This document shows, piece after piece, positions 2,335-46,117 of a DNA stretch of 64,000 nt. The DNA comes from Rhodospirillaceae bacterium. GTDB taxonomy: Bacteria; Pseudomonadota; Alphaproteobacteria; Reyranellales; Reyranellaceae. The position numbers were made by a program, and so were the translations under genes. The stretch spans positions 1 through 64,000 of the forward strand of contig WOUR01000012.1 in the NCBI GenBank assembly GCA_009772935.1. Direction: 5' to 3'. Positions within the stretch are counted from its first letter, which is position 1, and the number at the start of each line of letters is the position of its first letter. The notes under the pieces were generated by a model. The model was not told the DNA's origin and did no database searches. It saw only the letters and a program-made list of their open reading frames with translations.

Positions 2335-2623
2335 GGCTGCGTCGGATCACACTGCCATCGCCTTGCCCACGCGTCATCGTCCTTGCCATTGCGTCGCAAA
2401 ACGCCGCCGGAAATCGTTGAAGCCGCAGGATAATGCCCGGTGATTGCGATGGGCTTCTCGATTGCCTGGACAAGAGGTTGCAACGACGGGGAAAGTTCGC
2501 GCTTTCGGATTCCGAGTCGGGGAGTCAGAAGCTGCGCGCATTCATCATGGACAAAGAGTGTCATGTGACCGTTGTGCGATGAGCCGTGCCGGTGTAGCGA
2601 AGGGGAAGCAAGCCGGGGGGGCG
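2335..2623. other. divergent intergenic region, CoA transferase / MarR
   Basis: These 289 bases separate the CoA-transferase start (minus) from the MarR start (plus) and must hold both promoters. Several short open frames cross it, but none has a convincing ribosome site or protein-like composition. I found no strong inverted repeat or confident -35/-10 pair. In-frame alternative starts for the MarR gene exist upstream (for example ATG 2579) but would add residues atypical of MarR N-termini. Confidence 0.5.
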
Positions 2624-3097
2624 ATGCGAAGCAACGTTGCAAAGAAGCAGCTTGAGTCGAAGACTGCGTCGAGTGCGGCATCCAGGCCCTATCGCATCGA
2701 AGACCAGATCGGCTACCTGCTGCGACGCGCCCATCAGCGTGCGAGCGCCATCTTCCAGACCGGGATCGGCGATCCCAACATCACGCCGACCCAGTATTCG
2801 AGCCTGGCGAAGCTCGACGAATATACCGAGCTGTCGCAGAACCTGCTGGGCCGTCTCGTCGGCATGGACAAGGCCACGATGCAGGGCGTGGTGCGCCGGC
2901 TCAAGGAACGCGGTCTCGTCGATTCACGGCCCGATCCCGGCGATGCGCGCCGCACGCTGCTCAGCCTGACGACCGAGGGGCAGCGGCTGGTCAACAGGCT
3001 GCTGCTGAACGGGCCGGCGGTCTCGCGCGAGACCCTGAAGCCGCTCAATGTCCAGGAACAGAAGCAGCTCCTCGATCTTCTGTCGCGGATCATCTGA
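2624..3097 (+). CDS. MarR family transcriptional regulator
   Basis: This 157-residue protein has the MarR winged-helix layout: an N-terminal dimerisation helix (YRIEDQIGYLLRRAHQR), a helix-turn-helix around LSQNLLGRLVGMDKATMQGVVRRL, and a wing with the signature DPGDARRTLLSLTTEG. MarR proteins are usually ligand-released repressors of adjacent catabolic or efflux genes. ATG 2624 was chosen because it follows a purine-rich stretch (aggggaag) and gives a normal length. The gene lies 58 bp upstream of, and on the same strand as, the molybdenum-hydroxylase operon. An inverted repeat abuts that operon's first start codon, so it probably controls that operon, perhaps also itself. Confidence 0.88.
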   Translation: MRSNVAKKQLESKTASSAASRPYRIEDQIGYLLRRAHQRASAIFQTGIGDPNITPTQYSSLAKLDEYTELSQNLLGRLVGMDKATMQGVVRRLKERGLVDSRPDPGDARRTLLSLTTEGQRLVNRLLLNGPAVSRETLKPLNVQEQKQLLDLLSRII

Positions 3098-3135
3098 ATC
3101 CGACTGATTCGTTTGACTCGCACGCGGCCTGTGTC

Positions 3136-3155
3136 ATCGTACGTACACGAACGAT
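3136..3155. promoter_or_regulatory. inverted repeat abutting operon start; candidate MarR operator
   Basis: ATCGT (3136-3140) and ACGAT (3151-3155) form an inverted repeat with 10 bases between, and a CGTACG palindrome lies at 3138-3143. The right arm ends on the base before the ATG of the FAD-subunit gene, where no good Shine-Dalgarno sequence is visible. A regulator bound here would block transcription or initiation. Assignment to the adjacent MarR is inference. Confidence 0.4.
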
Positions 3156-3986
3156 ATGGGCGACTATCTCCGACCCCGAGGCCTTGACGAGGCGCTTCAG
3201 GCACTGACCCGGCCTTTCACGGTGCTGGCCGGCGGCACCGACTTCTATCCGGCGCGGGTCGGACGTGCCGTCACCGAAGACCTCCTCGACATTGCGGGAA
3301 TCGCTACTTTGCGCGGCATTTCCGAGACGTCGGCCGGTTGGCGGGTGGGCGCCACCACGACCTGGAGCGAACTGGTCGAAGCCGACCTGCCGCCGATGTT
3401 CGACGGGCTGAAGCAGGCGGCGCGCGAGGTGGGCGGCCGTCAGATCCAGAATACCGGTACGATTGCGGGTAATATCTGCAACGCCTCGCCGGCGGCCGAC
3501 GGTGTGCCGGCCTTGCTGGCCCTCGACGCGGAGGTGGAGCTCGCGCGCCGCGACGGCGCGCGGCGCCTGCCGCTCGCATCCTTCATCACTGGCGTCCGCA
3601 CGACGGCGCGGCAGCCCGGCGAACTCGTCGTGGCGCTCCATGTACGGCGCCCGCGGGGCGAGGCGAGGAGCGCCTTCCTGAAGCTCGGGGCGCGGCGCTA
3701 CCTGGTGATCTCGATTGCCATGGCCTCGACCTTGATCGAAGTCGAGGACGGAAAGGTCAAGGCGGCGCGCGTCGCCGTTGGGGCCTGCTCTCCCGTCGCA
3801 CAACGCTTGCCGGCCCTGGAGCACGCGCTGGTAGGCGCGACGATCGACGCCGATCTCGGCGAGCGGGTCGCTTTGTCTCACCTGGCGCCGTTGTCGCCGA
3901 TCGACGATGTGCGCGGCAGTGCCGGCTATCGCAGCGAGGTGGCCCTGGTCCTGCTCCGGCGGCTGCTGTCGAAGGTCGCCGCATGA
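3156..3986 (+). CDS. molybdopterin hydroxylase FAD-binding subunit (CoxM-like)
   Basis: A 276-residue medium subunit of a xanthine-oxidase-family hydroxylase. It carries FAD between the iron-sulfur clusters and the external electron acceptor. VLAGGTDFYP near residues 22-31 and QIQNTGTIAGNICNASPAAD (near 97-116) are the two FAD-binding loops, and the C-terminal CO_deh_flav_C region follows. The length matches CoxM/HcrB-type subunits. The gene's last four bases overlap the start of the fused FeS-Mo subunit, so the two are translationally coupled and form one complex. The start codon lacks an obvious Shine-Dalgarno, so leaderless or weak initiation is possible. Confidence 0.9.
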   Translation: MGDYLRPRGLDEALQALTRPFTVLAGGTDFYPARVGRAVTEDLLDIAGIATLRGISETSAGWRVGATTTWSELVEADLPPMFDGLKQAAREVGGRQIQNTGTIAGNICNASPAADGVPALLALDAEVELARRDGARRLPLASFITGVRTTARQPGELVVALHVRRPRGEARSAFLKLGARRYLVISIAMASTLIEVEDGKVKAARVAVGACSPVAQRLPALEHALVGATIDADLGERVALSHLAPLSPIDDVRGSAGYRSEVALVLLRRLLSKVAA

Positions 3987-6691
3987 AGCTCGAGTTCACG
4001 CTCAACGGAAGCACCGCGAGCTGGGACGGCGCGCCGGTCACGCGGCTGGCGACGGCGCTGCGCGATGATCTTGGCCTTACCGGAACGAAAATCGGCTGCG
4101 ATGCCGGCGATTGCGGCGCCTGCACGGTTCTGCTCGACGGCCGCCAGGTCTGTTCGTGCCTCGTGGCCATGGGCCAGGTGGCTGGCCGCAGCGTCGAGAC
4201 GGTCGAGAGTCTCTCCACGGAGGGGGAGGTCCTCGCCGCCCTCCAGCAATCGTTTCTCGATCATGGCGCGGCCCAGTGCGGCATCTGCACGCCCGGCATG
4301 CTGATGGCCGCACTGGAACTGGTGCGACGGAACAGCAAGCCAAGCCGTGCCGAGGTCGAAGATTTCCTGGGGGGCGTCCTCTGCCGCTGTACCGGCTACG
4401 GCAAGATCGTCGATGCGGTGATGGATGTCGTCGCGCCGGCGCCCGCGACCGCACCGGCAGCGGGCGAAGCCGTCGGGTCGCGCATCGTTCGGGTCGACGG
4501 CCCGGCCAAGGTCACCGGGCGCGACGTGTTCGGCGCCGATGGTATTCCCGCGGATGCGCTGTGGATCCGGGTCGTGCGCTCGCCCCATGCACGGGCACGC
4601 TTCGAACTGGGCGATCTCGAACCGCTGCGCCGGCGTCTCGCGGCGGTGTTGACGGCGGCGGACGTGCCGTCCAACGGCTACGGCATCTATCCCGACATCA
4701 AGGATCAGCCGGTCCTCGCCGACGGGCAGGTCCGGTATCGCGGCGAGGCGGTCGTCGCCCTGGTCGGCGAGCGGGTCGATGTGCTGGCGATTCGTGACGA
4801 CGAGGTGCCGATCACCTGGAGGCCCGAGCCGCCTTTGTTCGGCGTCGATGCCGCGAGGGCGGAAGATGCGCCGCGGGTACAGGCCGACAGGCCGGGCAAC
4901 CTGCTGCTGAAGGGCGGGGTGAAGCGCGGCGATCCGGCTGCAGCTTTCGACACCTGCGCGGCCGTGGCCGAAGGCACGTTCGAGACGGCGTTCGTCGAGC
5001 ATGCCTACATCGAACCCGAAGCCGGCTGGGCGCGCCGGGTCGGCGACCGGATCGAGATTCATGCCACCACCCAGACGCCCTACATGGACCGCGACGAGAT
5101 CGCCAACCTGATGCGGCTGACGCCCGAGGCCGTGCGCATCGTGCCGACGGCCTGCGGCGGCGGTTTCGGCGGCAAGCTCGATCTCTCGGTGCAGCCGCTG
5201 ATCGCGATCGCGGCCTGGACTCTGGGACGGCCGGTGGCGCTGGTCTACACGCGGCCCGAAAGCATGGCGGCCAGCACCAAGCGTCATCCCGCCAGGGTGA
5301 AAGCACGGTTCGGCTGCGATGCCGACGGCAAACTGCTTGCCTGCGACGTGACCGCCCTCTTCGACACCGGCGCCTATGCCTCCTGGGGACCGACCGTCGC
5401 CAACCGGGTGCCGGTACATGCGATGGGGCCGTACGCCATTCCGAATGTGCGGACCTGGGGCGAGGCCTTCTTCACCAACGGACCGCCGGCCGGGGCCTTC
5501 CGCGGTTTCGGCGTACCGCAGGCGGCCATTGCCCATGAGGCGATGCTGGACGAACTGGCGGACAAGCTGGGCATCGACCGATTGGAGTTCCGGCATCGCA
5601 ACGCCTTGCGCGCGGGCGACACGACGGCGACCGGCCAGACGCTCGCCCATTCCGCCGGCCTTGCGCAGTGCCTCGATGCGCTGCGGCCGCATTGGCGGAA
5701 GGCGCACGAGGAGTTTGCGGCGTTCAACGAGTCCGGTGGTGAGCGCCGTCGCGGCGTCGGCATCGGCTGCATGTGGTACGGCATCGGCAACACCTCGATG
5801 TCGAATCCCTCGCGCATGCGCGTGGGTCTATCGCCGGGCGGCACCTTGACGCTCTACAGCGGCGCGCTGGACATCGGTCAGGGCAGCAACACCATCATGT
5901 TGCAGATCGCCGCTGATGCGGTCGGTCTCCCCGCCGAACAATTCGACCTGGTGACGGGCGACACCGATCTCACCGCCGATGCCGGCAAGACCTCGGCCTC
6001 GCGCCAGACCTTCGTGTCCGGCAAGGCGGCCGAGAAGGCGGGACAGGACCTGCGCCAGCAGATCCTGCGGCTGGCCAATGCCGGTCCCGACGCGGTCCTG
6101 TCGCTCGACGGTGCGACGCTTTCCGTGCGCGATGGTGCCGAGGTCCGGACCATCGACCTCGCCACGGCGGGGCCGCTGATGGGAGAGGGCACCTTCGATC
6201 CACCGACGACGCCGCTCGATGCCGACGGGCAGGGGGTGCCCTATGCGACCTATGCCTTCGCCGCGCAGCTGGCCGAGGTCGAAGTCGATGTCGAGCTGGG
6301 CACGGTGAAGGTCCTGCGTATCGTGGCCGCGCACGATGTCGGCCGGGCGATCAATCCCACCCTCGTCGAAGGCCAGATCCAGGGCGGCGTGGCGCAGGGG
6401 CTGGGCCTCGCGCTGATGGAGGAATACCTCCCCGGCCGCACCGAGAACCTGCACGACTATCTCATCCCCACCGTCGGCGACGTCCCCGAAATCGAGTGCC
6501 TCCTGATCGAGGATCGCGAGCCGCTGGGTCCCTCGGGCGCCAAGGGGATCGGTGAGCCGGCCCTCGTGCCAACGGCGCCGGCCATCCTGGGCGCGGTCCA
6601 TCACGCGACCGGCGTGCGCGTCCGTCGCGTCCCATTGCTGCCGCACCGCCTGCGCGAGGCCATCGTCGCCCTGGAAAGGAACCGAGCATGA
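3983..6691 (+). CDS. fused [2Fe-2S] / molybdopterin subunit of a xanthine-oxidase-family hydroxylase
   Basis: A 902-residue fusion. Residues 1-155 are the small iron-sulfur subunit: a plant-type cluster at C39, C44, C47 and C59 and a second cluster at C99, C102, C134 and C136 (CRCTGY). After a short Ala/Pro linker, residues from about 165 form the molybdopterin subunit, with GGGFGGK, GAFRGFG and the C-terminal GAKGIGEPALVPTAPA containing the catalytic Glu. These enzymes hydroxylate N-heterocycles or aldehydes using water. FAD is supplied by the separate upstream subunit, an uncommon split. Because a 6-hydroxynicotinate-reductase-like gene follows directly, nicotinate or a related pyridine is the leading substrate guess. 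No XdhC-type cofactor-insertion gene is present nearby. Confidence 0.9.
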   Translation: MKLEFTLNGSTASWDGAPVTRLATALRDDLGLTGTKIGCDAGDCGACTVLLDGRQVCSCLVAMGQVAGRSVETVESLSTEGEVLAALQQSFLDHGAAQCGICTPGMLMAALELVRRNSKPSRAEVEDFLGGVLCRCTGYGKIVDAVMDVVAPAPATAPAAGEAVGSRIVRVDGPAKVTGRDVFGADGIPADALWIRVVRSPHARARFELGDLEPLRRRLAAVLTAADVPSNGYGIYPDIKDQPVLADGQVRYRGEAVVALVGERVDVLAIRDDEVPITWRPEPPLFGVDAARAEDAPRVQADRPGNLLLKGGVKRGDPAAAFDTCAAVAEGTFETAFVEHAYIEPEAGWARRVGDRIEIHATTQTPYMDRDEIANLMRLTPEAVRIVPTACGGGFGGKLDLSVQPLIAIAAWTLGRPVALVYTRPESMAASTKRHPARVKARFGCDADGKLLACDVTALFDTGAYASWGPTVANRVPVHAMGPYAIPNVRTWGEAFFTNGPPAGAFRGFGVPQAAIAHEAMLDELADKLGIDRLEFRHRNALRAGDTTATGQTLAHSAGLAQCLDALRPHWRKAHEEFAAFNESGGERRRGVGIGCMWYGIGNTSMSNPSRMRVGLSPGGTLTLYSGALDIGQGSNTIMLQIAADAVGLPAEQFDLVTGDTDLTADAGKTSASRQTFVSGKAAEKAGQDLRQQILRLANAGPDAVLSLDGATLSVRDGAEVRTIDLATAGPLMGEGTFDPPTTPLDADGQGVPYATYAFAAQLAEVEVDVELGTVKVLRIVAAHDVGRAINPTLVEGQIQGGVAQGLGLALMEEYLPGRTENLHDYLIPTVGDVPEIECLLIEDREPLGPSGAKGIGEPALVPTAPAILGAVHHATGVRVRRVPLLPHRLREAIVALERNRA

Positions 6692-8118
6692 GCGACGACA
6701 TCTCGCTCTCGGAGGCCGAACGCAGCGCCGGCATCGTGCGCTGCGACGCCTGTCCGGTCCTGTGCCGCATCCGGCCCGGGCGCGCCGGCGCCTGCGACCG
6801 CTACGCCAACGAGAACGGCGCGCTGGTGCGGGTCGATCCATTGGTCCTGCTGGCCAAGCCCGACCTTGCGCGCGTCGCCTTCATCGAAGGCAGCGATGCG
6901 TGGCGCGGCGAGCTGGGCAAAGGGGAAGGCGCCTTCGTCACCGGCATCGGCGCCACCACCACCTATCCCGACTACAAGCCCGCGCCGTTCATCGTCTCGT
7001 CGAAGCATGACGGCGTCGACATGGTCACCGTCGTGACCGAAGGCATCTTCAGCTACTGCGGCGTCAAGGTGAAGATCGATACCGACCGCTATCTCGGGCC
7101 CGAGCAGGCGACGGTGCGCGCCAAGGGTGAGGCGGTGGGCCATGTCACCACGGCCGAATACGGCTCGCAGATGCTGTCGCTGGGCGGCGTGCATCACCTC
7201 ACCGGTGGCAGCAAGAAGGAGGGTGTCGCCACCTGCGACGCGCTGCTGGCGCTATGTAACCGCGAGGCCGTCGAACTCACCATCGACGGCGGCTCGACGG
7301 TGGTGGTGCAGGCCGACAAGCCGCCGGTGGTGAACGGCGCGCTCGAAGAGCGCATGCGGGTCGGCTGCGGCTCGGCCGCCATCGGCATGTTCGCGCCGCA
7401 ATGGAAGGACCATGTCGACGAGGTGATCGTGGTCGACGACCACATCACGGGCGTTCTGAGCGAGCACCAGGGCGGCGTGTTCCTCGACATGAAGCCGGCC
7501 GGCATCCGCGTGCGCGGCCGCCGCTCGACGCCCGGCCGCTATTTCCAGGTGGCCGAGCCCGGGATGGGCTGGGGCGGCACCGATGTCAGCGACCCGCTGG
7601 AGATCATCGAGAAGATCGATCCGAAACAGGCCTGGCCGGGGCTCAAGCTGCTGATGGTCTCGACGACCGGCGAGCATTCGGCCTGGTTCACACTGGACGA
7701 TCAGCTGAAGCCGCAACCGGCTGAGATGCCCGCGCCGGTGCGCCATGTCGTCGAGCGCATCGCCGAGAACTGCGAGCCGGCGCTCTGTACCGTCCTTTTC
7801 ATGGCCGGCGCCGGCGGGTCGCTGCGGGCCGGCGTCACCGAGAACCCGGTGCGGCTCACGCGCTCGGTGCGCGACACGCTCACCAAGGTCACGCTGGGCG
7901 GCGCACCGGCCTTCATCTGGCCGGGCGGCGGCATCACCCTGATGGTCGATGTGGCGCGCATGCCGGAGAAATCCTTCGGCTATGTGCCGACGCCGGCGCT
8001 GGTCGCACCGATCGAGTTCACCCTGCGCGCCGACGATTATGCTGCGCTGGGAGGCTACGCCTCGCGCGCGGTCACGCTGGAGGACGTGCTGGCTCGCCAC
8101 AAGGTACGCGTCGAATGA
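6688..8118 (+). CDS. 6-hydroxynicotinate reductase-like iron-sulfur flavoprotein
   Basis: This 476-residue protein resembles, from recall of the family, 6-hydroxynicotinate reductase (Hnr) of anaerobic nicotinate fermentation, which reduces 6-hydroxynicotinate to 1,4,5,6-tetrahydro-6-oxonicotinate with reduced ferredoxin. Near the N-terminus C19, C22, C26 and C36 form an iron-sulfur ligand set. Further cysteines occur at 124, 183, 190 and 227. A GIGATTTYPD segment (86-95) resembles covalent-FMN attachment sites. The start overlaps the hydroxylase stop by four bases and the end overlaps the ApbE-like gene by four. Coupling to a hydroxylase suggests hydroxylation followed by ring reduction. Substrate identity is inferred. 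Confidence 0.72.
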   Translation: MSDDISLSEAERSAGIVRCDACPVLCRIRPGRAGACDRYANENGALVRVDPLVLLAKPDLARVAFIEGSDAWRGELGKGEGAFVTGIGATTTYPDYKPAPFIVSSKHDGVDMVTVVTEGIFSYCGVKVKIDTDRYLGPEQATVRAKGEAVGHVTTAEYGSQMLSLGGVHHLTGGSKKEGVATCDALLALCNREAVELTIDGGSTVVVQADKPPVVNGALEERMRVGCGSAAIGMFAPQWKDHVDEVIVVDDHITGVLSEHQGGVFLDMKPAGIRVRGRRSTPGRYFQVAEPGMGWGGTDVSDPLEIIEKIDPKQAWPGLKLLMVSTTGEHSAWFTLDDQLKPQPAEMPAPVRHVVERIAENCEPALCTVLFMAGAGGSLRAGVTENPVRLTRSVRDTLTKVTLGGAPAFIWPGGGITLMVDVARMPEKSFGYVPTPALVAPIEFTLRADDYAALGGYASRAVTLEDVLARHKVRVE

Positions 8119-8960
8119 GCGCCGTCGCCGCCTGCCTCGATGATGGACGGCTGCACCTGCAGCACGGTCCGATTGATCTCATCATCGAGGCGTTCGGCGT
8201 GCCGGGTGAGGTCGAGCGGGCCTATGCGCAAGCCATCGATCGCTTCGGCGACATCCTGCCAACCTTGGTCGGCGAGCTGATCGTGCTGCGCCGGCCGGTC
8301 GGAGAGGCCTATCCTCTGCTGCAGGGGCCGGTGGCGCGGCGCATGGCCGAAGCCGTGTGGCCGCATCGCGCCCGCTACATCACGCCGATGGCCGCCGTTG
8401 CCGGTGCCGTCGCCGACGAGATGCTGCAGGCGCTGGTGCGCGGCCGCACGCTCGACAAGGCCTATGTGAACGATGGCGGCGACATCGCGATCCATCTGGA
8501 GCCAGGCCAGTCGCTGCGCGCCGGCATTATCGCGCAAGCCCTCGATGGCGTGGCGCTGCTCACGCACGAGCGGCCCGTGCGCGGGATCGCGACCTCGGGC
8601 CGGGGCGGACGCTCCTTCTCGCTGGGCATCGCGCACTCCGTGACCGTGCTCGCCGCCAAAGCCGCGGCGGCCGATGCCGCGGCGACGATGATCGCCAACG
8701 CGGTGAATGCCGATCATCCGGCCATCGATCGCCGGCCCGCGCGTTCGCTGGATCCGGACAGCGATCTCGGCGAGCTGCCGGTGACGGTCGCGGTCGGTGA
8801 CTTGCCGTCGGAGATCATCGACGCCGCCCTTGACCGCGGCGCGGCTGAGGCGCGGCGGCTGAGGCTCTGCGGGCTGATCGACAGCGCGGCGCTGTCACTC
8901 GACGGACAATGGCGAATCGAAGCGGGCGGCACGCCGCTTGCTCTGTCGGAGGCGGGATGA
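8115..8960 (+). CDS. UPF0280 family protein, ApbE-like (putative flavin transferase)
   Basis: 281 residues, UPF0280 family, which shares the fold of ApbE FAD:protein FMN transferase. Visible ApbE-like elements are VNDGGDIAIHL (near 117-127), GIATSGRGGRSFSLGIAHSVTVL (a segment longer than this equals the ApbE ATSG...H...VTV core) and ADAAATMIANAVN, matching the metal-binding AD-x-x-AT region. It is coupled by four-base overlaps to the 6-hydroxynicotinate-reductase-like gene before it and the AA_synth gene after it. A direct inference is that it attaches flavin covalently to the preceding reductase. The family has no settled function, so this is a hypothesis. Confidence 0.8.
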   Translation: MSAVAACLDDGRLHLQHGPIDLIIEAFGVPGEVERAYAQAIDRFGDILPTLVGELIVLRRPVGEAYPLLQGPVARRMAEAVWPHRARYITPMAAVAGAVADEMLQALVRGRTLDKAYVNDGGDIAIHLEPGQSLRAGIIAQALDGVALLTHERPVRGIATSGRGGRSFSLGIAHSVTVLAAKAAAADAAATMIANAVNADHPAIDRRPARSLDPDSDLGELPVTVAVGDLPSEIIDAALDRGAAEARRLRLCGLIDSAALSLDGQWRIEAGGTPLALSEAG

Positions 8961-9544
8961 GCGATCTGGTGAAAGTGCGGAAGTACGTCGCGACCGTCGA
9001 GGAGACGCTCCACGACTTCGGGCCGGCGCTGGCGCGTCCGGTGACGAAGGCGGTGGTCGGCGGCGTCATCGCCAATCCCTATGCCGGGCGGCACGTGGCC
9101 GACATCCAGCCGATGATGAAGGCGCTGGAACCGCTCGCGGTCGATCTCACCGAGCGGGTGATGAAGATCCTGGGCGCCCAGGGCTCGGAGCTGGAGGCCT
9201 ACGGCAAGGGCGCGATCGTCGGCCTGAACGGCGAATTGGAACATGCCGCCCTGTGGCACCAGCCCAGCGGCTTCGGCATCCGCCATGCCATGGGCGGCGC
9301 CAAGTCGATCGTGCCCTCGACCGTGAAGGTCGCGACCGCGGGCGCCCGCATTGACATCCCGCTGCATCATGTGACGGCGGCCTATGTACGCAGCCATTTC
9401 GACGCCATCGAGTTCTGCGTGCCCGACGGGCCGCGGCCGGACGAGATCGTGTTCATCGTCGCTGCCGCGATCGGCGGCCGGCCCCATGCGAGGGTCGGTG
9501 GGCTGACGCCGGCCGAGATCAAGCTGGGGGATGGCCAGCGATGA
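8957..9544 (+). CDS. AA_synth (amino acid synthesis) family protein
   Basis: 195 residues of the family usually labelled amino acid synthesis protein (Pfam AA_synth), whose biochemical role is not established. Conserved-looking stretches are KAVVGGVIANPYAGRH near residues 31-46, GKGAIVGLNGELEHAALWH, and GIRHAMGGAKSIVPS. The ATG at 8957 overlaps the UPF0280 stop, and its own stop overlaps the next ATG, so it is a fully coupled operon member. The protein is likely soluble, with no signal peptide or membrane segment. Its regular placement with ring-degrading genes suggests a role in handling a pathway intermediate, which is only an inference. Confidence 0.75.
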   Translation: MSDLVKVRKYVATVEETLHDFGPALARPVTKAVVGGVIANPYAGRHVADIQPMMKALEPLAVDLTERVMKILGAQGSELEAYGKGAIVGLNGELEHAALWHQPSGFGIRHAMGGAKSIVPSTVKVATAGARIDIPLHHVTAAYVRSHFDAIEFCVPDGPRPDEIVFIVAAAIGGRPHARVGGLTPAEIKLGDGQR

Positions 9545-9921
9545 ACGACGATGCTCTGGCGGCCGCCCTGAAAGTGATGGACGCCTATATCGACGGTCTC
9601 AATCGCCACGACGAGCCGGCGGTCAACGATGCCTGCAACTTCCCGCATGTGCGGCTGGCCGGCGGCAAGGTCGTCACGTGGCCGAACCACGGCGACTACA
9701 AGCTGGGCGACTTCGTGGCCCGCGCCGGCGACGGATGGCATCACAGCACGTGGGACGAGCGCATGCCTATCCATGTCGGCCGCGACAAGGTCCATCTCAA
9801 GGTGAAGTTCAGCCGCTGGCGCAAGGACGGTTCGCTGCTCGGCGCCTTCGAGACGATCTACATCGTGACGCTTCAGGACGGTCACTGGGGGATACAGGCA
9901 CGGTCGAGCTTTGCCGACTGA
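9541..9921 (+). CDS. NTF2-like (SnoaL-type) small protein
   Basis: 126 residues with the cone-shaped NTF2/SnoaL pattern: a long N-terminal helix (ALAAALKVMDAYIDGLNRHD), then alternating strands ending in YIVTLQDGHWGIQARSSFAD. Members act as small-molecule isomerases, cyclases or hydrolases, or merely bind ligands; no catalytic residues can be assigned with confidence. It is the last gene of the six-gene coupled operon and starts inside the stop codon of the AA_synth gene. A 76 bp gap with no clear terminator separates it from the transporter binding protein, so transcription may continue. Confidence 0.75.
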   Translation: MNDDALAAALKVMDAYIDGLNRHDEPAVNDACNFPHVRLAGGKVVTWPNHGDYKLGDFVARAGDGWHHSTWDERMPIHVGRDKVHLKVKFSRWRKDGSLLGAFETIYIVTLQDGHWGIQARSSFAD

Positions 9922-9997
9922 GCGCTTGTGGGAGAGGGGCCGGCCTCGCTAGGGTCGGTTCACGGGGAATGTTTCACTTATCGAAGAGGGGGATGTC

Positions 9998-11203
9998 ATG
10001 CTGACCCGCAATCGCCTGCTCGCCGGCACCGCCGCGCTCGTGGCGCTGTCGCTCGTCGGACCGGCTGCCGCGCAGGCACCGATCAAGATCGGCGAGCTCA
10101 ACAGCTACAAGGTCTTTCCGGCCTTCCTCGAACCCTACAAGAAGGGCATCGAGCTGGCGGTCGAAGAGGTCAATACCGCGGGCGGCGTGCTCGGCCGCAA
10201 GATCGAGGTGGTGAGCCGTGACGACAACGGCAATCCCGGCGATGCGGTTCGCGTCGCCGAGGAGCTGCTGAGCCGCGAAGGTGCCGCCTTCCTGATCGGG
10301 ACCTTCCCGTCGAACGTCGGCCTCGCCGTTGCCGATTTCGCCAAGCAGCGCAAGGTCCTGTTCATCGCCGCCGAGCCGCTGACCGACAAGATCGTCTGGG
10401 ACCAGGGCAACGCCTACACCTTCCGCCTGCGCACCTCGACGTACATGCAGACGGCGATGCTCATTCCGGATGCCGTCAAGCTCAAGAAGAAGCGTTGGGC
10501 GATCGTCTATCCCAACTATGAGTACGGCCAGTCGGCGACGGCAGCCTTCAAGAAGCTCCTGAAGGAGAAGCAGCCCGACGTCGAGTTCGTCGCCGAGCAG
10601 GCGACGCCGCTGGGCAAGATCGATGCCGGCGCCGTGGCCCAGGCGCTGGCCGACGCCAAGCCCGACGCGATCTTCTCCTCGCTGTTCGGTCCCGACCTCG
10701 CCAAGTTCGTGCGCGAAGGCCAGACCCGTGGCCTGTTCAAGGGCGTTGAGGTCTTCAACCTGCTGGCCGGCGAGCCCGAGTATCTCGATCCGCTGAAGGA
10801 GGAGTCGCCCGACGGCTGGTACGTCACGGGCTATCCGTGGAGCGAGCTCAAGACGCCCGAGCACACCAAGTTCCTCAGCGCCTACCAGGCCAAGTTCAAG
10901 GACTATCCGCGGCTGGGCTCGGTGGTCGGCTACGCGACCGTGATGTCGGCGGCCGAGGCGATCAAGAAGGCGGGCTCGCTCGACCAGGAGAAGCTCGTTG
11001 CCGCCATGAAAGGGCTCACGCTGATCACGCCGTTCGGCAAGATTCAGTATCGGCCGCTCGATCACCAGTCGACCATGGGCGCCTATGTCGGCCAGATCGG
11101 CGTGAAGGACGGCAAGGGCTACATGAAGAACTGGCGCTTCGTCGACGGCAAGGACGCCCTGCCGAGCGACGCCGACGTCCAGAAGATGCGGCCGAAGAAC
11201 TGA
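9998..11203 (+). CDS. ABC transporter periplasmic substrate-binding protein (branched-chain type)
   Basis: This 401-residue protein is a Peripla_BP_6-type binding protein of a Liv-like ABC importer. Its Sec signal peptide has a basic start (MLTRNR), a hydrophobic core and a cleavage site after AAA near residues 24-26. The mature part begins IKIGELNSYKVFPAF and contains VVSRDDNGNPGDAVRVAEEL, a usual family motif. A strong ribosome site (gaagaggggg) precedes the ATG. The permease, two ATPases and an orphan HyuA follow on the same strand. The ligand is unknown; the genomic setting suggests a heterocycle, hydantoin or amino-acid-like compound. Confidence 0.9.
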   Translation: MLTRNRLLAGTAALVALSLVGPAAAQAPIKIGELNSYKVFPAFLEPYKKGIELAVEEVNTAGGVLGRKIEVVSRDDNGNPGDAVRVAEELLSREGAAFLIGTFPSNVGLAVADFAKQRKVLFIAAEPLTDKIVWDQGNAYTFRLRTSTYMQTAMLIPDAVKLKKKRWAIVYPNYEYGQSATAAFKKLLKEKQPDVEFVAEQATPLGKIDAGAVAQALADAKPDAIFSSLFGPDLAKFVREGQTRGLFKGVEVFNLLAGEPEYLDPLKEESPDGWYVTGYPWSELKTPEHTKFLSAYQAKFKDYPRLGSVVGYATVMSAAEAIKKAGSLDQEKLVAAMKGLTLITPFGKIQYRPLDHQSTMGAYVGQIGVKDGKGYMKNWRFVDGKDALPSDADVQKMRPKN

Positions 11204-11223
11204 CGGTGACGCAGTCACCGTCA
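11201..11223 (+). terminator. stem-loop overlapping the binding-protein stop codon
   Basis: TGACGGTGAC and GTCACCGTCA form a perfect 10 bp stem around a GCA loop, beginning on the TGA stop itself. There is no following T-run, so it is more likely an mRNA-stabilising or attenuating hairpin between the highly needed binding protein and the permease than a full terminator. It overlaps the start of a REP-like element by four bases. Confidence 0.5.
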
Positions 11224-11287
11224 TCCCGAGCGAAGTCGAGGGATCTTTGAGGCGCCCTGAAAGGTCCCTCGCTGCGCTCGGGATGAC
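11220..11287. repeat. REP-like palindromic element, family A copy 1
   Basis: Two imperfect inverted arms, beginning GTCATCCCGAGCGAAG and ending CTGCGCTCGGGATGAC, pair over about 28 bases each. A related element lies at 16708-16756. It fills most of the gap between the binding-protein and permease genes, and could form a long hairpin that tempers read-through. Confidence 0.7.
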
Positions 11288-11311
11288 ACCTTCTCTTTCC
11301 TCGGCCATCGC

Positions 11312-13186
11312 GTGACCCTCGCTTCCATCCTCATCCAGCTGCTGAACGGGCTGGCGGCGGCCGCGTCGCTGTTCCTGGTGTCCGCCGGCCTGTCGCTGAT
11401 CTTCGGTGTGACGCGGATCGTGAACTTCGCGCACGGTTCGCTCTACATGCTGGGACTCTACGGCACCTATTCGCTGATCCAGTTCTTCGGCCGCACGCCG
11501 CTCGGCTTCTGGGGCGCCGTCGTGCTGGCGGCGCTCGCGGTGGGCCTGGTCGGCATCCTGATCGAGGTGCTGGTGCTGCGGCGCATCTATCGAGCGCCGG
11601 AGCTGTTCCAGCTGCTGGCGACCTTCGCGGTCGTGCTGGTGATCAAGGACATCGCGCTGTTCACCTGGGGCGCCGAGGACTTGGTCGGGCCGCGTGCGCC
11701 CGGCCTTTCGACGGCGGTCGAGATCATGGGGCGGCGCATCCCGGCCTACGACCTGCTGCTGATCGCCATCGGTCCCGTCGTTCTGGCACTCCTCTGGCTG
11801 TTGCTGACGCGCACGCGCTGGGGCGCGTTGGTGCGGGCGGCAACGCAGGACCGCGAGATGGTGGGCGCGCTGGGCGTCGACCAGGCCAAGCTCTTCACCT
11901 CCGTCTTCTTCGTGGGCTCCGTCCTCGCAGGCCTTGGCGGCGCGCTGCAGATCCCGCGCGAGCCGGCCAATCTCGAACTCGATCTCGCCATCATCGCCGA
12001 CGCGTTCGTGGTGACGGTGGTGGGCGGGCTGGGCAGCATCGGTGGAGCCTTCCTGGCCGCTATCATCATCGGCGTGGCCAAGGCCTTCTGCATCGGCATC
12101 GGCACCGTGACCTGGTTCGGCTTCGAGGTGTCCTTCTCCAAGCTCACGCTGGTGGTCGAGTTCCTGATCATGGCGCTGGTGCTGGTCGTGCGGCCCTACG
12201 GGCTGCTGGGCAAGCCGCAGGCCGCGCAGCGGGCGACCGAACCGGCGCCGCGATTGCAGGTGCCGTCCTGGACCTTCGCGCTCGTCTGGCTGGCGCTGCT
12301 CGCCCTCGTGCCGCTGGCCGCCGATCGCTACACCACGATCCTGCTAACCGACATCGTCTGCTTCGCGCTGTTCTCCGTCTCCCTCCACTTCATCATGGGG
12401 CCGGCCGGCATGGTCTCGTTCGGCCACGCCGCCTATTTCGGCATCGGCGCTTATGCGGCGGGCCTGCTGATGAAGCGCTTCGGCCTGCCGATGGAGGCGG
12501 CGCTCCTGCTGGCGCCGCTGGTCGCCGGCCTCTTCGCCATCGTCTACGGCTGGTTCTGCGTGCGCCTGTCGGGCGTCTACCTCGCCATGCTGACGCTCGC
12601 CTTCGCGCAGATCAGCTGGTCGGTCGTCTTCCAGTGGGATTCGATGACGGGCGGCAGCAACGGTGTGTTTGGCGTCTGGCCGTCGGCCTGGCTCGCCGAC
12701 AAGACGACCTACTACTATCTCGCGCTCGTCCTGTGCGGCGCCGGCATCGTCTTCCTGTGGAGGGTGCTGTTCTCTCCCTTCGGCTATGCCCTGCGGGCCG
12801 GCCGCGATTCGCCGCTGCGCGCCGAGGCGATCGGCATCGACCTGCGCGGCTTCCAGTGGGCGGCCTTTGTGCTGGTCGGGGCGCTGGCCGGCCTTGCGGG
12901 CGCGGTCTATGCCTTTTCCAAGGGCAGCATCTCGCCCTCCAGCATCTCGATCGCGCAATCGACCGATGGCCTGATCATGGTGCTGCTGGGTGGCGTCGAG
13001 ACCCTGACCGGCCCGGTGGTCGGCGCGGCGATCTTCACCTGGCTGCGCGACGTCGTGGCCCGCAACACCGAATTCTGGCGCGCCGTGATGGGCGGCGTGA
13101 TCCTGCTGATCGTGCTCCTGTTCCCGCAGGGGCTGGTCGGCGGCCTGAAGGTGCTGGTCGCGCGCTGGCGGGAGCAGCGGGCATGA
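11312..13186 (+). CDS. fused LivH-LivM ABC permease
   Basis: A 624-residue double permease. Residues 1 to about 300 correspond to LivH (N-terminal LSLIFGVTRIVNFAHGSLYM signature, ending in VVRPYGLLGKP). After a short linker, residues from about 315 correspond to LivM (MGPAGMVSFGHAAYFGIGAY, then VRLSGVYLAMLTLAFAQ and the IGIDLRGFQWAAFVLVGALAG-type cytoplasmic loop). Liv permeases are usually two genes of about 300 residues; here one polypeptide supplies the whole membrane channel. Translation starts at GTG 11312, just after a REP-like element. The last four bases overlap the ATPase gene. Confidence 0.92.
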   Translation: MTLASILIQLLNGLAAAASLFLVSAGLSLIFGVTRIVNFAHGSLYMLGLYGTYSLIQFFGRTPLGFWGAVVLAALAVGLVGILIEVLVLRRIYRAPELFQLLATFAVVLVIKDIALFTWGAEDLVGPRAPGLSTAVEIMGRRIPAYDLLLIAIGPVVLALLWLLLTRTRWGALVRAATQDREMVGALGVDQAKLFTSVFFVGSVLAGLGGALQIPREPANLELDLAIIADAFVVTVVGGLGSIGGAFLAAIIIGVAKAFCIGIGTVTWFGFEVSFSKLTLVVEFLIMALVLVVRPYGLLGKPQAAQRATEPAPRLQVPSWTFALVWLALLALVPLAADRYTTILLTDIVCFALFSVSLHFIMGPAGMVSFGHAAYFGIGAYAAGLLMKRFGLPMEAALLLAPLVAGLFAIVYGWFCVRLSGVYLAMLTLAFAQISWSVVFQWDSMTGGSNGVFGVWPSAWLADKTTYYYLALVLCGAGIVFLWRVLFSPFGYALRAGRDSPLRAEAIGIDLRGFQWAAFVLVGALAGLAGAVYAFSKGSISPSSISIAQSTDGLIMVLLGGVETLTGPVVGAAIFTWLRDVVARNTEFWRAVMGGVILLIVLLFPQGLVGGLKVLVARWREQRA

Positions 13187-13932
13187 GCCAGGCGATCCTC
13201 CAGGTCGAGGGGCTGCACAAGGCGTTCGGCGGTGTCCAGGCGGTGGCCGACGTCTCCTTCGCCGTCTCGGCCGGCGAGATGCTGGCGCTGATCGGGCCCA
13301 ATGGCGCGGGCAAGAGCACCTGCTTCAACATGCTGAACGGCCAGCTTACGCCCGACTCCGGCATCGTGCGCCTCGAAGGCCGCGACATCGTGGGCCTGCG
13401 CCCGCGCGTGATCTGGCGGCTGGGCGTCGGCCGTACCTTCCAGATCACCGCCACCTTCGCCTCGCTCAGCGTGCGCGAGAACGTGCAGATGGCGCTCTAT
13501 TCCCATGCCGGCCGGCTGCGTTCGCTGCTGTCGCGCTTTGGCGCGGCATTCGGCCGGGAAGCCGATGCGCTGCTCGACCAGGTCGGCATGCTCGACCAGG
13601 CAGAGCGGACCTGCGGCGTGCTGGCCTATGGCGACCTGAAGCGCGTCGAGCTCGCCATCGCGCTGGCCAACCAACCGCGGCTGCTGCTGATGGACGAGCC
13701 GACCGCCGGCATGGCGCCCAAGGAGCGCGTCGCGCTGATGGAGCTGACGGCGCGACTCGCACGGGCACGCAACATCGCCGTGCTGTTCACCGAGCATGAC
13801 ATGGACGTGGTCTTCACCCAGGCCGACCGCATCATCGTGCTCGACCGCGGCGTGCTGATCGCCGGGGGCACACCGCCGGAAGTCCGCGCCAATCCCAACG
13901 TGCGCGCGGTCTATCTCGGGAGCGCGCATTGA
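13183..13932 (+). CDS. ABC transporter ATP-binding protein (LivG-like)
   Basis: A 249-residue ATPase of the LivG branch. Walker A is GPNGAGKST (39-47), the branch-typical signature is LAYGDLKRVELA in place of LSGGQ, Walker B is LLLMDEP, and the switch His lies in FTEHDMD. The QITATF segment after VGRTF is the LivG insertion. ATG 13183 overlaps the fused permease stop, and the end overlaps the LivF start. It powers the importer encoded by the neighbouring genes, acting at the inner face of the cytoplasmic membrane. Confidence 0.92.
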   Translation: MSQAILQVEGLHKAFGGVQAVADVSFAVSAGEMLALIGPNGAGKSTCFNMLNGQLTPDSGIVRLEGRDIVGLRPRVIWRLGVGRTFQITATFASLSVRENVQMALYSHAGRLRSLLSRFGAAFGREADALLDQVGMLDQAERTCGVLAYGDLKRVELAIALANQPRLLLMDEPTAGMAPKERVALMELTARLARARNIAVLFTEHDMDVVFTQADRIIVLDRGVLIAGGTPPEVRANPNVRAVYLGSAH

Positions 13933-14645
13933 CGGCGCCGCCGATGCTGGAGGTGAAGGACCTGCACGCCTTCTACGGCCGCGCCCATATCCTGCACGGC
14001 ATCTCGCTCGAGGTGCGCGCGGGCGAGGTCGTGGCGTTGCTGGGCCGCAACGGCGCGGGCAAGTCGACGGCGATGAAGGCGATCATGGGGCTGGTGACGC
14101 CGGCCCGTGGCGAGGTCAGCTTCGCCGGAATGCGCATCGAGCGCCTGCCGCCCTATCGCATTGCGCGTCTCGGCTTGGGTTATGTCCCGGAGGAGCGGCG
14201 CATCTTCACCGAACTGTCGGTGATGGAGAATCTCGAAGTCGGCCGCCAGGCCGTGCGGGCCGGCGTGCCGACCTGGACGGAAGAGAAGCTGTTCAAGCTG
14301 TTTCCCAATCTCGCCCGCATGCGCGAACGGCCGGGCGGACGGATGTCGGGCGGCGAGCAGCAGATGCTCACCATCGCCCGTACCCTGATGGGCAATCCCA
14401 GTTGCGTCCTGCTCGACGAGCCGTCCGAAGGGCTGGCGCCCATCATCGTCGAGGAGATGGCCAACTCCATCCGGGCGCTGAAGGGCGAGGGCGTGTCGGT
14501 CATCCTGTGCGAGCAGAACCTGCACTTCGCGCTGGGCGTGGCCGACCGCGCCTACATCATCGAGAAGGGCCAGATCCGCTTCGGCGGTTCGATGGCCGAG
14601 CTGGCGGCCAACGAGTCCCTCCGCGAACAATATCTTTCGGTTTGA
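13929..14645 (+). CDS. ABC transporter ATP-binding protein (LivF-like)
   Basis: A 238-residue LivF-type ATPase. Walker A is GRNGAGKST, signature MSGGEQQML, Walker B CVLLDEP, and the LivF-specific EERRIFTELSVMENL follows the Q-loop. Two starts are possible: TTG 13929, embedded in the LivG stop (TTGA), or ATG 13944 five codons downstream; coupling favours the first, codon preference the second. It pairs with the LivG-like ATPase. HyuA starts only four bases after its stop, so the hydantoinase gene belongs to the same transcript. Confidence 0.9.
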   Translation: MTAPPMLEVKDLHAFYGRAHILHGISLEVRAGEVVALLGRNGAGKSTAMKAIMGLVTPARGEVSFAGMRIERLPPYRIARLGLGYVPEERRIFTELSVMENLEVGRQAVRAGVPTWTEEKLFKLFPNLARMRERPGGRMSGGEQQMLTIARTLMGNPSCVLLDEPSEGLAPIIVEEMANSIRALKGEGVSVILCEQNLHFALGVADRAYIIEKGQIRFGGSMAELAANESLREQYLSV

Positions 14646-14649
14646 ACCC

Positions 14650-16695
14650 ATGTCGCTCAAGAGCAGCTTCACCGTCGGCATCGATGTCGGCGGAACCTTC
14701 ACCGACCTCCTGGCGATCGATCCGACGACCAACGAGGTGAAGCTCGCCAAGGTGCCGACCACCGTCGACAACCAGGCGATCGGCTTCATGGCGGCACTGG
14801 CGGCGGCGGGCCTCGATCCGGCGCTGCTGCAGGCGGTGGTCCACGGTACGACGACGACCACGAACGCCGTGCTCGAACGCAAGATCGCGAAGGTGGGACT
14901 TATCACGACCAAGGGCTTCCGCGACGTGCTGGAGCTGGGCCGCCGCACGCGGCCGCAGCCCTACGGCCTGCGCGGCACCTTCACGCCGGTGATCGACCGC
15001 GAGGTTCGGCTCGAAGTCCCGGAGCGCATGGATGCCGACGGCAAGGTCCTGACGCCGCTCGATGAAGAAGCGGTCGCCGAAGCCGCGCAAAACCTGCTGG
15101 CGGCGGGCTGCGAGGCCGTCGTCATCCATTTCCTGCACAGCTACATCAACCCGGCGCATGAGCGCCGCGCCGCCGAGATCGTGCGCGGGCTTTGGCCGAA
15201 CGAATACGTCACCGCGGGCCACGTCATCCTGTCGGAGTATCGCGAGTACGAGCGCGGCGTTACGGCGGCGGTGAATGCCTCGGTCCAACCGGTGCTCGAC
15301 CGCTATCTCTCGCGGCTGCGCACCGAGCTCAGGGCCAAGGGCTTCGACCGCGATCTGCTGGTGATGCAGGGCAATGGTGGCACGATCTCCTCGCAGCTGA
15401 TCGCCGAGGCGGCGGTGAACACGGTGATGTCCGGCCCGGCCTCGGGCGTGATGGCGGCCGCCTATACCGGCCGCGCCTCCGGCCATCCCAACCTGATCAC
15501 CTACGACATGGGCGGCACCTCGACCGATGTCGGGCTGATCGAGAATGCCGTGCCGCAGGTCTCGGGCGAGCTCGAACTCGAATACGCGATGCCGATCCAT
15601 GTGCCGATGGTCGACGTGCACACGATCGGTGCGGGCGGCGGCTCGATCGCCTCGGTCGATGCGGCCGGCATGCTGCGGGTCGGACCGGAGAGTGCGGGCG
15701 CGCGGCCGGGACCCATCTGCTACGGCCGCGGCGGCTCGGAGCCCACCATAACCGACGCCAACCTGGTGCTCGGCCGGCTCAACCCCGACAAGTTGCTGGG
15801 CGTCGATCATCCCGTGACGCTCGACCATGTGCGCAGTCTTGTGCTGGAGAAGGTCGGCCAGCGGCTCGGCCTCGATGCCGAGGCGGCCGCCGCCGCCATC
15901 CTGCGCATCGCCAACGACCGCATGGCCGGCGCCGTGCGTCTCGTGTCCTTGTCACGCGGCCATGATCCGCGCGACTTCGCGCTGTTCGCCTTCGGCGGCG
16001 CGGGACCCCTGCATGCGACGGCGCTGGCGCGCGAGCTCGGCATCCCGACCGTGCTGGTGCCGGTGCGGCCCGGCATCACCAATGCGCTGGGCTGCGTCGT
16101 GGCCGACCTGCGCCACGACTACGTGCGCACGGTGAACAAGCCGCTCTCCGCCGTCGACGACGCCACGGTGGCGCGCATCTATGCCGACCAGGCCGCCGAG
16201 GGCGAGGCGACGATCGCCCGCGAGGGCGTGCCGGTGCGCGAGCTGCGCCGCGTGCTCTCGGCCGACATGCAGTTCCAGGGGCAGAGCCATATCCTGTCGG
16301 TCGGCGTCGACAACGCCGACATCGGTGTTGCCGGCCTGCACAAGGCCTTCGCCGCCGCCTACTGGCGCCGGTTCGGCATAGAGCTGCCGGAGATCCCGCC
16401 GGTCCTCGTCAACCTGCACACCGCGGTGATCGGGGTGCGGCCGGAAATCTCGCTGGCCGCGCTGGCCGCGACCGATCGCGCCGCCACGCTCGACGCCGCG
16501 CGGCTCGGCACGCGCCGCGTCTGGTTCAGCGACGGCTGGCACGACACGCCGGTCTACGCCCGCGAGAAGCTGCCGCTCGATGCCACGCTGGAAGGCCCGG
16601 CGATCCTCGAGCAGCTCGACTGCACCACCGTCGTCGAACCGGGCGACACGGTCCGGCAGGACAGGCTCGGCGATTTGCTGATTTCCGTTTCTTAA
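14650..16695 (+). CDS. hydantoinase/oxoprolinase family protein, HyuA-like (no HyuB partner)
   Basis: 681 residues with the HyuA layout: an ASKHA-type phosphate loop GIDVGGTFTDLLAID (10-24), HGTTTTTNAVLER, the central YDMGGTSTDVGLIE and GAGGGSIASVDAAG segments, and FGGAGPLHATALAREL near residue 450. The family performs ATP-driven opening of hydantoins, 5-oxoproline or, with extra subunits, carboxylation of ketones. Normally a HyuB gene (about 550 residues) is adjacent; none is found here. It is tightly linked to the Liv-type importer and followed by two enolase-superfamily genes. The substrate is probably what the transporter imports. Confidence 0.88.
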   Translation: MSLKSSFTVGIDVGGTFTDLLAIDPTTNEVKLAKVPTTVDNQAIGFMAALAAAGLDPALLQAVVHGTTTTTNAVLERKIAKVGLITTKGFRDVLELGRRTRPQPYGLRGTFTPVIDREVRLEVPERMDADGKVLTPLDEEAVAEAAQNLLAAGCEAVVIHFLHSYINPAHERRAAEIVRGLWPNEYVTAGHVILSEYREYERGVTAAVNASVQPVLDRYLSRLRTELRAKGFDRDLLVMQGNGGTISSQLIAEAAVNTVMSGPASGVMAAAYTGRASGHPNLITYDMGGTSTDVGLIENAVPQVSGELELEYAMPIHVPMVDVHTIGAGGGSIASVDAAGMLRVGPESAGARPGPICYGRGGSEPTITDANLVLGRLNPDKLLGVDHPVTLDHVRSLVLEKVGQRLGLDAEAAAAAILRIANDRMAGAVRLVSLSRGHDPRDFALFAFGGAGPLHATALARELGIPTVLVPVRPGITNALGCVVADLRHDYVRTVNKPLSAVDDATVARIYADQAAEGEATIAREGVPVRELRRVLSADMQFQGQSHILSVGVDNADIGVAGLHKAFAAAYWRRFGIELPEIPPVLVNLHTAVIGVRPEISLAALAATDRAATLDAARLGTRRVWFSDGWHDTPVYAREKLPLDATLEGPAILEQLDCTTVVEPGDTVRQDRLGDLLISVS

Positions 16696-46037: not shown

Positions 46038-46070
46038 CCGGGGACTTTCTTTCTTGGGTTGGCATGCGGA

Positions 46071-46093
46071 GTGCAACACGTGTTGCGTTGCAC
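46071..46093. promoter_or_regulatory. nested palindromic operator candidate in divergent promoter
   Basis: GTGCAACACGTGTTGC starts a nested repeat: a perfect 14 bp palindrome GCAACACGTGTTGC (46073-46086) and a further inverted pair GTGCAAC (46071-46077) / GTTGCAC (46087-46093). It lies in the middle of the 80 bp between the deacetylase and xdhA starts, so one regulator could govern both directions. The regulator is not identified. Confidence 0.55.
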
Positions 46094-46117
46094 TTCAACG
46101 CCCAGCATCCTGTTCGC

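Follow-up and report, generated by a model that had tools for sequence, protein, structure and literature searches.

An operon with a reductase-like gene and a UPF0280 gene

The window analysed here is a stretch of 64,000 nucleotides from Rhodospirillaceae bacterium (NCBI GenBank assembly GCA_009772935.1, contig WOUR01000012.1, positions 1 to 64,000 of the forward strand). Between positions 3156 and 9921 it carries six genes on the + strand, coding for the flavin adenine dinucleotide (FAD) subunit and the fused iron-sulfur/molybdopterin (FeS/Mo) subunit of a hydroxylase, a 6-hydroxynicotinate-reductase-like protein (Hnr), a UPF0280 protein, an AA_synth protein and a small protein (Table 1). 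This gene set, joined by four-base overlaps, had been predicted from the sequence, and the coordinates agree: all five junctions are 4-bp ATGA overlaps. Third-position G+C in the six frames is 0.83-0.89. The unit is wider than these six genes, with a MarR-family gene upstream and genes for a transporter and for HyuA downstream (2444-16695). On balance, we consider that the unit probably breaks down nicotinate reductively, in the manner of Eubacterium barkeri and Azorhizobium; HyuAB would open the ring and UPF0280 would be a maturation partner.

Pfam and NCBIfam scans upheld the labels FAD subunit, FeS-Mo hydroxylase, UPF0280 and AA_synth of the original prediction. Its NTF2-like label for the small protein was not confirmed, neither Pfam nor PDB giving a significant match; a homologue at locus L039 has a sub-threshold match to the NTF2-like DUF6841 (E 0.088). 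For comparison we took the 80 top-ranking loci among at least 593 that two Hnr motifs had retrieved, a sample skewed to the window's relatives (80 named loci; 84 with three plasmids and the window; L and G numbers are our handles for loci and genomes). A homologue of the small protein occurs in 10/80 named loci, in every case with an Hnr at least 90% identical to that of the window. The source organism is Reyranella-like. The closest named relatives by Hnr, a Rhodospirillales metagenome-assembled genome (MAG; 98%) and Reyranella aquatilis (94%), have an identical gene order, and because this order is kept in the Reyranella-type loci the arrangement is not a matter of chance.

Table 1. Genes of the unit in the window and the matches on which their assignment is based
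Feature	Coordinates	Strand	Basis and remarks
MarR-family regulator	2444..3097	+	Pfam MarR_2, E 3.7e-11, residues 113-170; start codon uncertain, probably internal
FAD subunit, xanthine-dehydrogenase-family hydroxylase	3156..3986	+	Pfam FAD_binding_5, CO_deh_flav_C
Fused [2Fe-2S]/molybdopterin subunit	3983..6691	+	Fer2, Fer2_2, MoCoBD_1/2; motifs CDAGDCGAC, CG.C...CRC, GIGEP
6-Hydroxynicotinate-reductase-like protein (Hnr), 476 aa	6688..8118	+	Annotation of plasmid homologues
UPF0280 protein	8115..8960	+	NCBIfam NF003322, 365.5 bits (curated cut-off 290)
AA_synth (DUF1185) protein	8957..9544	+	PF06684, 223.8 bits (gathering cut-off 27)
Small protein	9541..9921	+	Pfam, PDB: nothing significant
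Periplasmic binding protein, branched-chain-amino-acid-type ABC transporter	9998..11203	+	Peripla_BP_6, 254 bits
Fused ABC permease (LivHM type)	11312..13186	+	BPD_transp_2, two stretches
ABC ATPase (LivG type)	13186..13932	+	ABC_tran, BCA_ABC_TP_C; start codon uncertain, frame from 13186
ABC ATPase (LivF type)	13929..14645	+	ABC_tran
HyuA, alpha subunit of hydantoinase/oxoprolinase-type enzyme	14650..16695	+	Best NCBIfam caprolactamase alpha, below cut-off

Hnr gave no significant match in Pfam, NCBIfam or PDB (sub-threshold Pfam GCV_T_C, E 0.01). It is named after homologues, 64-69% identical, on 26 plasmids (17 annotated as 6-hydroxynicotinate reductase, 3 as hypothetical protein and 6 unannotated there), and because an alphaproteobacterial homologue is given as 42% identical to the E. 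barkeri enzyme in PMC3511419. Eight cysteines are invariant over 53 Hnr rows, a number that suffices for two four-cysteine clusters. In work of Alhapel from 2006, the E. barkeri enzyme reportedly has Fe-S clusters as well as a covalently bound flavin. For the window Hnr, an AlphaFold2 model was obtained with a mean predicted local distance difference test score (pLDDT) of 82.7 and values under 50 for residues 60-91. A fold assignment was set aside as too weak (Foldseek best E 0.015; VIA best Z 4.7, to a T-protein barrel, residues 124-211). The naming of a flavin-attachment residue was also given up: T91 and T92 are invariant in the loop TGIGxxTTYPDY, which is poorly modelled, and no site is named because conservation over the 53 rows reaches 98% or more in 22 Ser/Thr columns. 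Two records titled Solirubrobacterales (L110) and Mesoflavibacter (L072) hold an Hnr 71-72% identical to that of the window; they may be mislabelled or misbinned, or reflect gene transfer.

UPF0280 and Hnr occur in the same genomes

The original prediction had proposed a survey of whether the two families always co-occur. We scored Hnr (E <= 1e-20) and NF003322 (E <= 1e-10) in a class sample of 385 alphaproteobacterial genomes. The same 68 genomes hold both, and in 67 of them the two genes are adjacent on one strand; in the 68th (G231) they lie on separate contigs, the match to Hnr being a partial one. All 26 plasmids with Hnr also have UPF0280, and the expected association was thus borne out, as it was in another order: in a sample built round a Burkholderiales MAG (L049), Hnr and UPF0280 occur in the same 4/33 genomes, or in 3/32 without the centre genome G385, which was known beforehand to hold both. 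The Hnr search there covered 34 genomes and the UPF0280 search 33, the genome left out being one without Hnr. Among 14 control genomes none has NF003322 at the cut-off, weak matches below it being found in two methanogens. Fisher values for this co-occurrence, and for the partition of ring-opening enzymes described below, ignore kinship.

At the level of the locus, 73 named loci extend at least 1.2 kb past Hnr. UPF0280 lies on the same strand within 600 bp in 64 of these, and at other distances, from a 9-bp overlap to 4.9 kb downstream, in 7. L055 and L110, where UPF0280 is missing from the locus, were considered as exceptions to the link and dismissed, since UPF0280 is present elsewhere in both genomes.

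UPF0280 occurs on a single plasmid besides the 26 with Hnr, that of Hydrogenophaga sp. BPS33 (L153, NZ_CP044550.1), which has IS1071-flanked repeats with UPF0280, MarR, a Rieske protein and a PDR/VanB reductase. Between IS1071 and one UPF0280 copy, about the last 30 residues of Hnr can be recognised by eye (in one copy); tblastn is silent there.

UPF0280 is predicted to share the flavin-transferase fold

The AlphaFold2 model of the window UPF0280 (pLDDT 94.1) matches the solved UPF0280 structure 2O34 (DVU1097) with a Z of 20.7, and chains of ApbE, Ftp and FmnB with Z 14.1-15.6 over 204-215 residues (root-mean-square deviation 3.2-3.7), so that the fold shared with ApbE, which had been claimed earlier, is supported by the predicted structure. 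When a profile of 48 UPF0280 rows is set against one of 23 ApbE rows from Alphaproteobacteria, residues 94-193 align with a probability of 94% (E 1.8e-7). Common to both profiles are the GGD/GGE, ATSG and ADxxxT stretches, the last being a Mg-site motif; in UPF0280 its D187 is found in 48/48 rows and T191 in 0.96 of them, opposite D255 and T259 of ApbE. Membership of UPF0280 in the flavin-transferase superfamily is therefore well supported.

COG2122, to which 2O34 corresponds, is of the same family and fold and has GGD, SxSLG and ADAAAT in common with the window protein, but its partner is the DUF39/NIL-ferredoxin system whereas that of the window UPF0280 is Hnr. According to PMC5764234, D. 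vulgaris needs COG2122 to make homocysteine, and a role with persulfide has been suggested.

Enamidase and HyuB alternate in Hnr genomes

The first 40 kb of the window gave no enamidase match, and neither did the window's genome (assembly 98% complete) at E <= 1e-5. HyuA begins 4 bp past the transporter genes, a location that repeats in the Reyranella-type loci, and is 59-69% identical to the HyuA of loci with both HyuA and HyuB. The matching HyuB of the window's genome (G000) lies on another contig (G000:C1:38391-40058) and is 76% identical to the HyuB of L045; seven other HyuB of this genome are 30-34% identical to it, a ninth being uncompared. HyuA and the distant HyuB, which the original prediction had overlooked, would stand in the place of enamidase. 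Both are related to caprolactamase CapAB, N-methylhydantoinase and 5-oxoprolinase, with the difference that the A and B genes are apart in the window's genome. The best PDB match of HyuA is N-methylhydantoinase (453 bits), and the protein is closer to N-methylhydantoinase/oxoprolinase than to the carboxylases. Beside the HyuB on contig C1 (L119:8374-10092, - strand), the next gene on the same strand is of the asparaginase family; its product may act on an amide further down the pathway.

The enamidase query matches 35/385 class genomes at E <= 1e-60, and the enamidase of L105 matches the solved enamidase 2VUN with E 1e-110. Among the 68 Hnr genomes, scored at 68% identity or above, 29 have enamidase and 39 have HyuB; none has both and none has neither. 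These identity cut-offs were chosen after gaps had been seen in the class genomes (enamidase, 68-88% vs at most 42%; HyuB, 68-97% vs at most 62%). The 26 Hnr plasmids divide in the same manner and need no cut-off: 16 have enamidase, 10 have HyuB, none both and none neither. HyuB is at least 66.6% identical on the Hnr plasmids and 60-65% on eight others. In the 80 named loci we found enamidase in 18, HyuA with HyuB in 18 and HyuA alone in 13, and in no locus enamidase together with HyuB.

A tree of Hnr was made by a quick method from 53 of the 84 loci; the remaining 31, which gave no ring-opener match and of which 19 are truncated at contig ends, were dropped, loci with HyuA only were scored as Hyu, and the row of L152 sits on a long branch. 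The ring-opener label switches 7 times on this tree, at least 5 of them on starred branches, and L070 (Hyu) differs in label even from its sister L106 (enamidase). This alternation suggests that both enzymes probably act on the same product, tetrahydro-oxonicotinate. That enamidase and HyuAB open the same lactam is the simplest reading, and probably the correct one.

The hydroxylase and its likely substrate

In E. barkeri nicotinate dehydrogenase, each of the two molybdopterin subunits is matched by the window's Mo subunit, 3HRD_A with 277 bits over residues 163-568 and 3HRD_B with 234 bits over residues 588-898 (together 163-898, the addition being ours). Higher-scoring single chains are aldehyde oxidoreductase (395 bits, residues 16-894) and 4-hydroxybenzoyl-CoA reductase (309 bits, residues 163-898). 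By sequence, the fused FeS/Mo protein is a probable nicotinate 6-hydroxylase.

Across the 84 loci, 71 have the FAD-Mo pair, 3 have a NicAB-type hydroxylase without the pair (the NicAB label coming solely from the annotation of L150) and 10 are unassigned. Both hydroxylase types pair with both ring-openers, in all four combinations, that of NicAB with HyuB being seen once; the first 40 kb of the window gave no NicAB match. Near hnr, 8 of the 84 loci have a ferredoxin-NADP-reductase-like gene and 5 have a 2-oxoacid:ferredoxin-oxidoreductase-like pair, plausible electron sources for Hnr; at the thresholds used, the window's first 40 kb showed neither gene type. The 2-oxoacid:ferredoxin oxidoreductase (POR/TPP) pairs are those of L053, L070, L073, L079 and L094, and could possibly supply low-potential electrons for ring reduction.

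We infer the substrate and the order of the reactions: the route is one in which a pyridine, most likely nicotinate, would be hydroxylated and then reduced. According to PMC3511419, such a reductive nicotinate route is already known in aerobic Alphaproteobacteria (Azorhizobium, Bradyrhizobiaceae), and for E. barkeri as well as A. caulinodans PMC9304392 describes a route that runs via tetrahydro-6-oxonicotinate and uses enamidase. The cluster that the former source gives for Azorhizobium caulinodans, Bradyrhizobium and strain SG-6C has the genes for the first three steps, identified by means of the E. barkeri cluster and so presumably with enamidase, and includes two proteins listed as unknown. 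The window's genome has HyuA/HyuB instead. The nicotinate fermentation cluster of E. barkeri, which we take to comprise Ndh, Hnr and enamidase, has, like the window, a Mo hydroxylase and an Hnr-type reductase. It differs in its enamidase, where the window's genome has HyuA/HyuB, and in the way the hydroxylase subunits are fused.

AA_synth

The DUF1185 protein BB2672 (3BYQ) is of the same family as the window AA_synth, and the conserved Glu/His/Arg cluster described for DUF1185/AA_synth in PMC2954203 is common to the two; aligned to 3BYQ, the window protein keeps E93, E95, H96, H101, H147, R175, H177 and R179. PMC7913881 links HcdD, a member of AA_synth, to coumarin breakdown, with an effect of HcdD that was not detectable, and names TgnF of trigonelline breakdown as a homologue of HcdD. 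AA_synth matches occur in 48/64 loci with at least 4.5 kb downstream, and 14/20 enamidase loci have two. The fold is chorismate-mutase-like and presumably shared with RidA deaminases, and because of this analogy we would guess, speculatively, that AA_synth handles a ring-opened enamine or aldehyde. On an Agrobacterium vitis pAt plasmid (L155, NZ_CP118261.1), which has no Hnr match, AA_synth is directly ahead of a 41% identical enamidase-like amidohydrolase, with a flavin monooxygenase gene near. AA_synth may accompany ring or amide opening more widely.

Neighbouring genes

The MarR gene ends 58 bp before the gene of the FAD subunit, and a MarR match is found somewhere in 26 of the 46 loci that have at least 8 kb on either side of Hnr; the MarR protein is the likely regulator of the unit. 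Ahead of the operon (135-2334) are a gene of the ornithine-cyclodeaminase family, which scores over the cut-off of NCBIfam PRK06141 (pyrroline/piperideine-2-carboxylate reductase), and a gene for a family III CoA-transferase, which could serve glutarate-type products. Of the 14 loci L031-L044, 10 likewise have these two genes ahead of the operon. At 46064-49821, away from the operon, the window contains another pair of the xanthine-dehydrogenase family, consisting of FeS-FAD and Mo subunits.

A proposed pathway and its alternatives

In the pathway we propose, the Mo hydroxylase would convert nicotinate to 6-hydroxynicotinate, and Hnr, an Fe-S enzyme and by analogy one with a covalent flavin, would reduce this to 1,4,5,6-tetrahydro-6-oxonicotinate. 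The lactam would be opened by a caprolactamase-like, ATP-dependent HyuA together with the HyuB from elsewhere in the genome, in replacement of enamidase, and AA_synth would probably, if speculatively, process the ring-opened enamine or aldehyde. UPF0280 would be a dedicated partner of the pathway, most likely for Hnr maturation; its favoured chemistry, flavin transfer or insertion, is put forward tentatively, as close to an even call. Of the original prediction, the route in which a pyridine is hydroxylated and then reduced agrees with the Hnr annotation and the 3HRD matches, and the pairing and the ApbE fold stood as well; flavinylation of the reductase by UPF0280 stays a proposal.

Several observations weigh against parts of this pathway, and those that concern UPF0280 come from its sequence and its distribution. 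The loop with the invariant His of ApbE (YSHTID, HTIDPxTG), a residue that is catalytic there, corresponds to a gap in UPF0280, which has no invariant His in 48 rows; the Lys of the ApbE motif IAKG also faces a gap, and the N-terminal motifs of ApbE fall outside the profile alignment, only residues 94-193 aligning. That the window Hnr would be a flavoprotein is an analogy with the E. barkeri enzyme. In two split genomes of which both pieces were read (L055 and G417), UPF0280 is found together with AA_synth and the binding protein, away from Hnr. UPF0280 might instead assemble or repair Fe-S or persulfide centres of Hnr, as COG2122 may do for DUF39/NIL-ferredoxin, and not be a flavin transferase. 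The eight invariant cysteines of Hnr, the missing His loop and the requirement for COG2122 in homocysteine synthesis, with the persulfide role suggested for it, would suit this explanation; against it, UPF0280 retains GGD, ATSG and ADxxxT and its conserved columns are without Cys, and we hold it to be rather unlikely. A further explanation is that the flavin is attached by a canonical ApbE whose gene lies outside the operon, UPF0280 being unrelated in function. With PF02424 scored at E <= 1e-10, canonical ApbE is found in 101/385 genomes, one copy being present in the window's genome (G000:C47), and it is commoner in genomes with Hnr (30/68 vs 71/317; Fisher p 4e-4, kinship ignored). There is no PF02424 match, however, in 38/68 Hnr genomes, nor in 32/56 of those at least 95% complete. 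ApbE was for this reason set aside as the general flavinylating enzyme in spite of its enrichment, and the explanation appears very unlikely, even though ApbE may have a part in Hnr flavinylation where it is present.

The ring-opening step has its own difficulties. Neither ring-opener is within the flanks of 31/80 named loci, and with E-value limits alone two genomes (G104 and G289) score both, through enamidase-like paralogues of 38-39% identity. A HyuB match without Hnr on the same replicon occurs on 8 plasmids; close HyuB is found without Hnr in 4 genomes (G114, G217, G307 and G383) and close enamidase in one (G082). The four are of one family (f114) and, like G082, are also without UPF0280; these five may represent a variant without ring reduction, or a loss. 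The best NCBIfam matches, caprolactamase alpha for HyuA (507 bits) and caprolactamase beta for HyuB (322 bits), are far below the equivalog cut-off of 1000. Finally, enamidase opens the ring without ATP, so that ATP-driven opening would need a reason. Alternatively, the substrate might be another pyridine or azine, and clusters with HyuAB might degrade a different compound from those with enamidase. The first 40 kb of the window are without a NicAB or enamidase match, the operon has its own binding protein, and Mo hydroxylases have a broad substrate range; but loci labelled Hyu and enamidase are intermingled on the Hnr tree, even within the pair L070/L106, and the NicAB-type hydroxylase is found with both ring-openers, so that we regard a different substrate as unlikely. 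It is also conceivable that HyuA belongs to an unrelated pathway and that AA_synth opens the lactam, or that the ring opens spontaneously, in keeping with a HyuB outside the operon and with the AA_synth match in 48/64 loci. Close HyuB and enamidase, however, divide the Hnr genomes and plasmids with no overlap and no remainder, and HyuA follows the transporter by 4 bp, in a position that recurs in Reyranella-type loci; we give this explanation little credence. Nicotinate as the substrate, with HyuAB opening the same lactam as enamidase, is the reading that we retain.

Implications

In the open-licence literature we found nothing on UPF0280 by name, on hydantoinase with 6-hydroxynicotin-, or on flavinyl with ApbE and hydroxynicotin-. 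The pathway would be a known one, in a variant with a ring-opening enzyme and a reductase helper that appear to be undescribed in the literature searched. The comparative evidence is unusually clean. A more specific statement, in which UPF0280 is a His-less branch of the flavin-transferase superfamily and installs the flavin of a single client, Hnr (itself of a fold with no clear relative among solved structures), ATP-driven, caprolactamase-like HyuAB replaced enamidase in about half of the lineages and AA_synth is responsible for an enamine/imine step, seems possible but doubtful as a whole.

NF003322, described only as 'hypothetical protein', is linked to a single enzyme by the pattern of genomes that have or lack it, and because of this link the role of UPF0280 becomes testable. 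AA_synth gains a concrete pathway context in which it could be assayed. The alternation of HyuAB with enamidase suggests a role for some of the proteins annotated as 'hydantoinase/oxoprolinase' or 'acetophenone carboxylase' on hnr-bearing replicons, and predicts a second ring-opening enzyme for the breakdown of a vitamin, nicotinate (vitamin B3).

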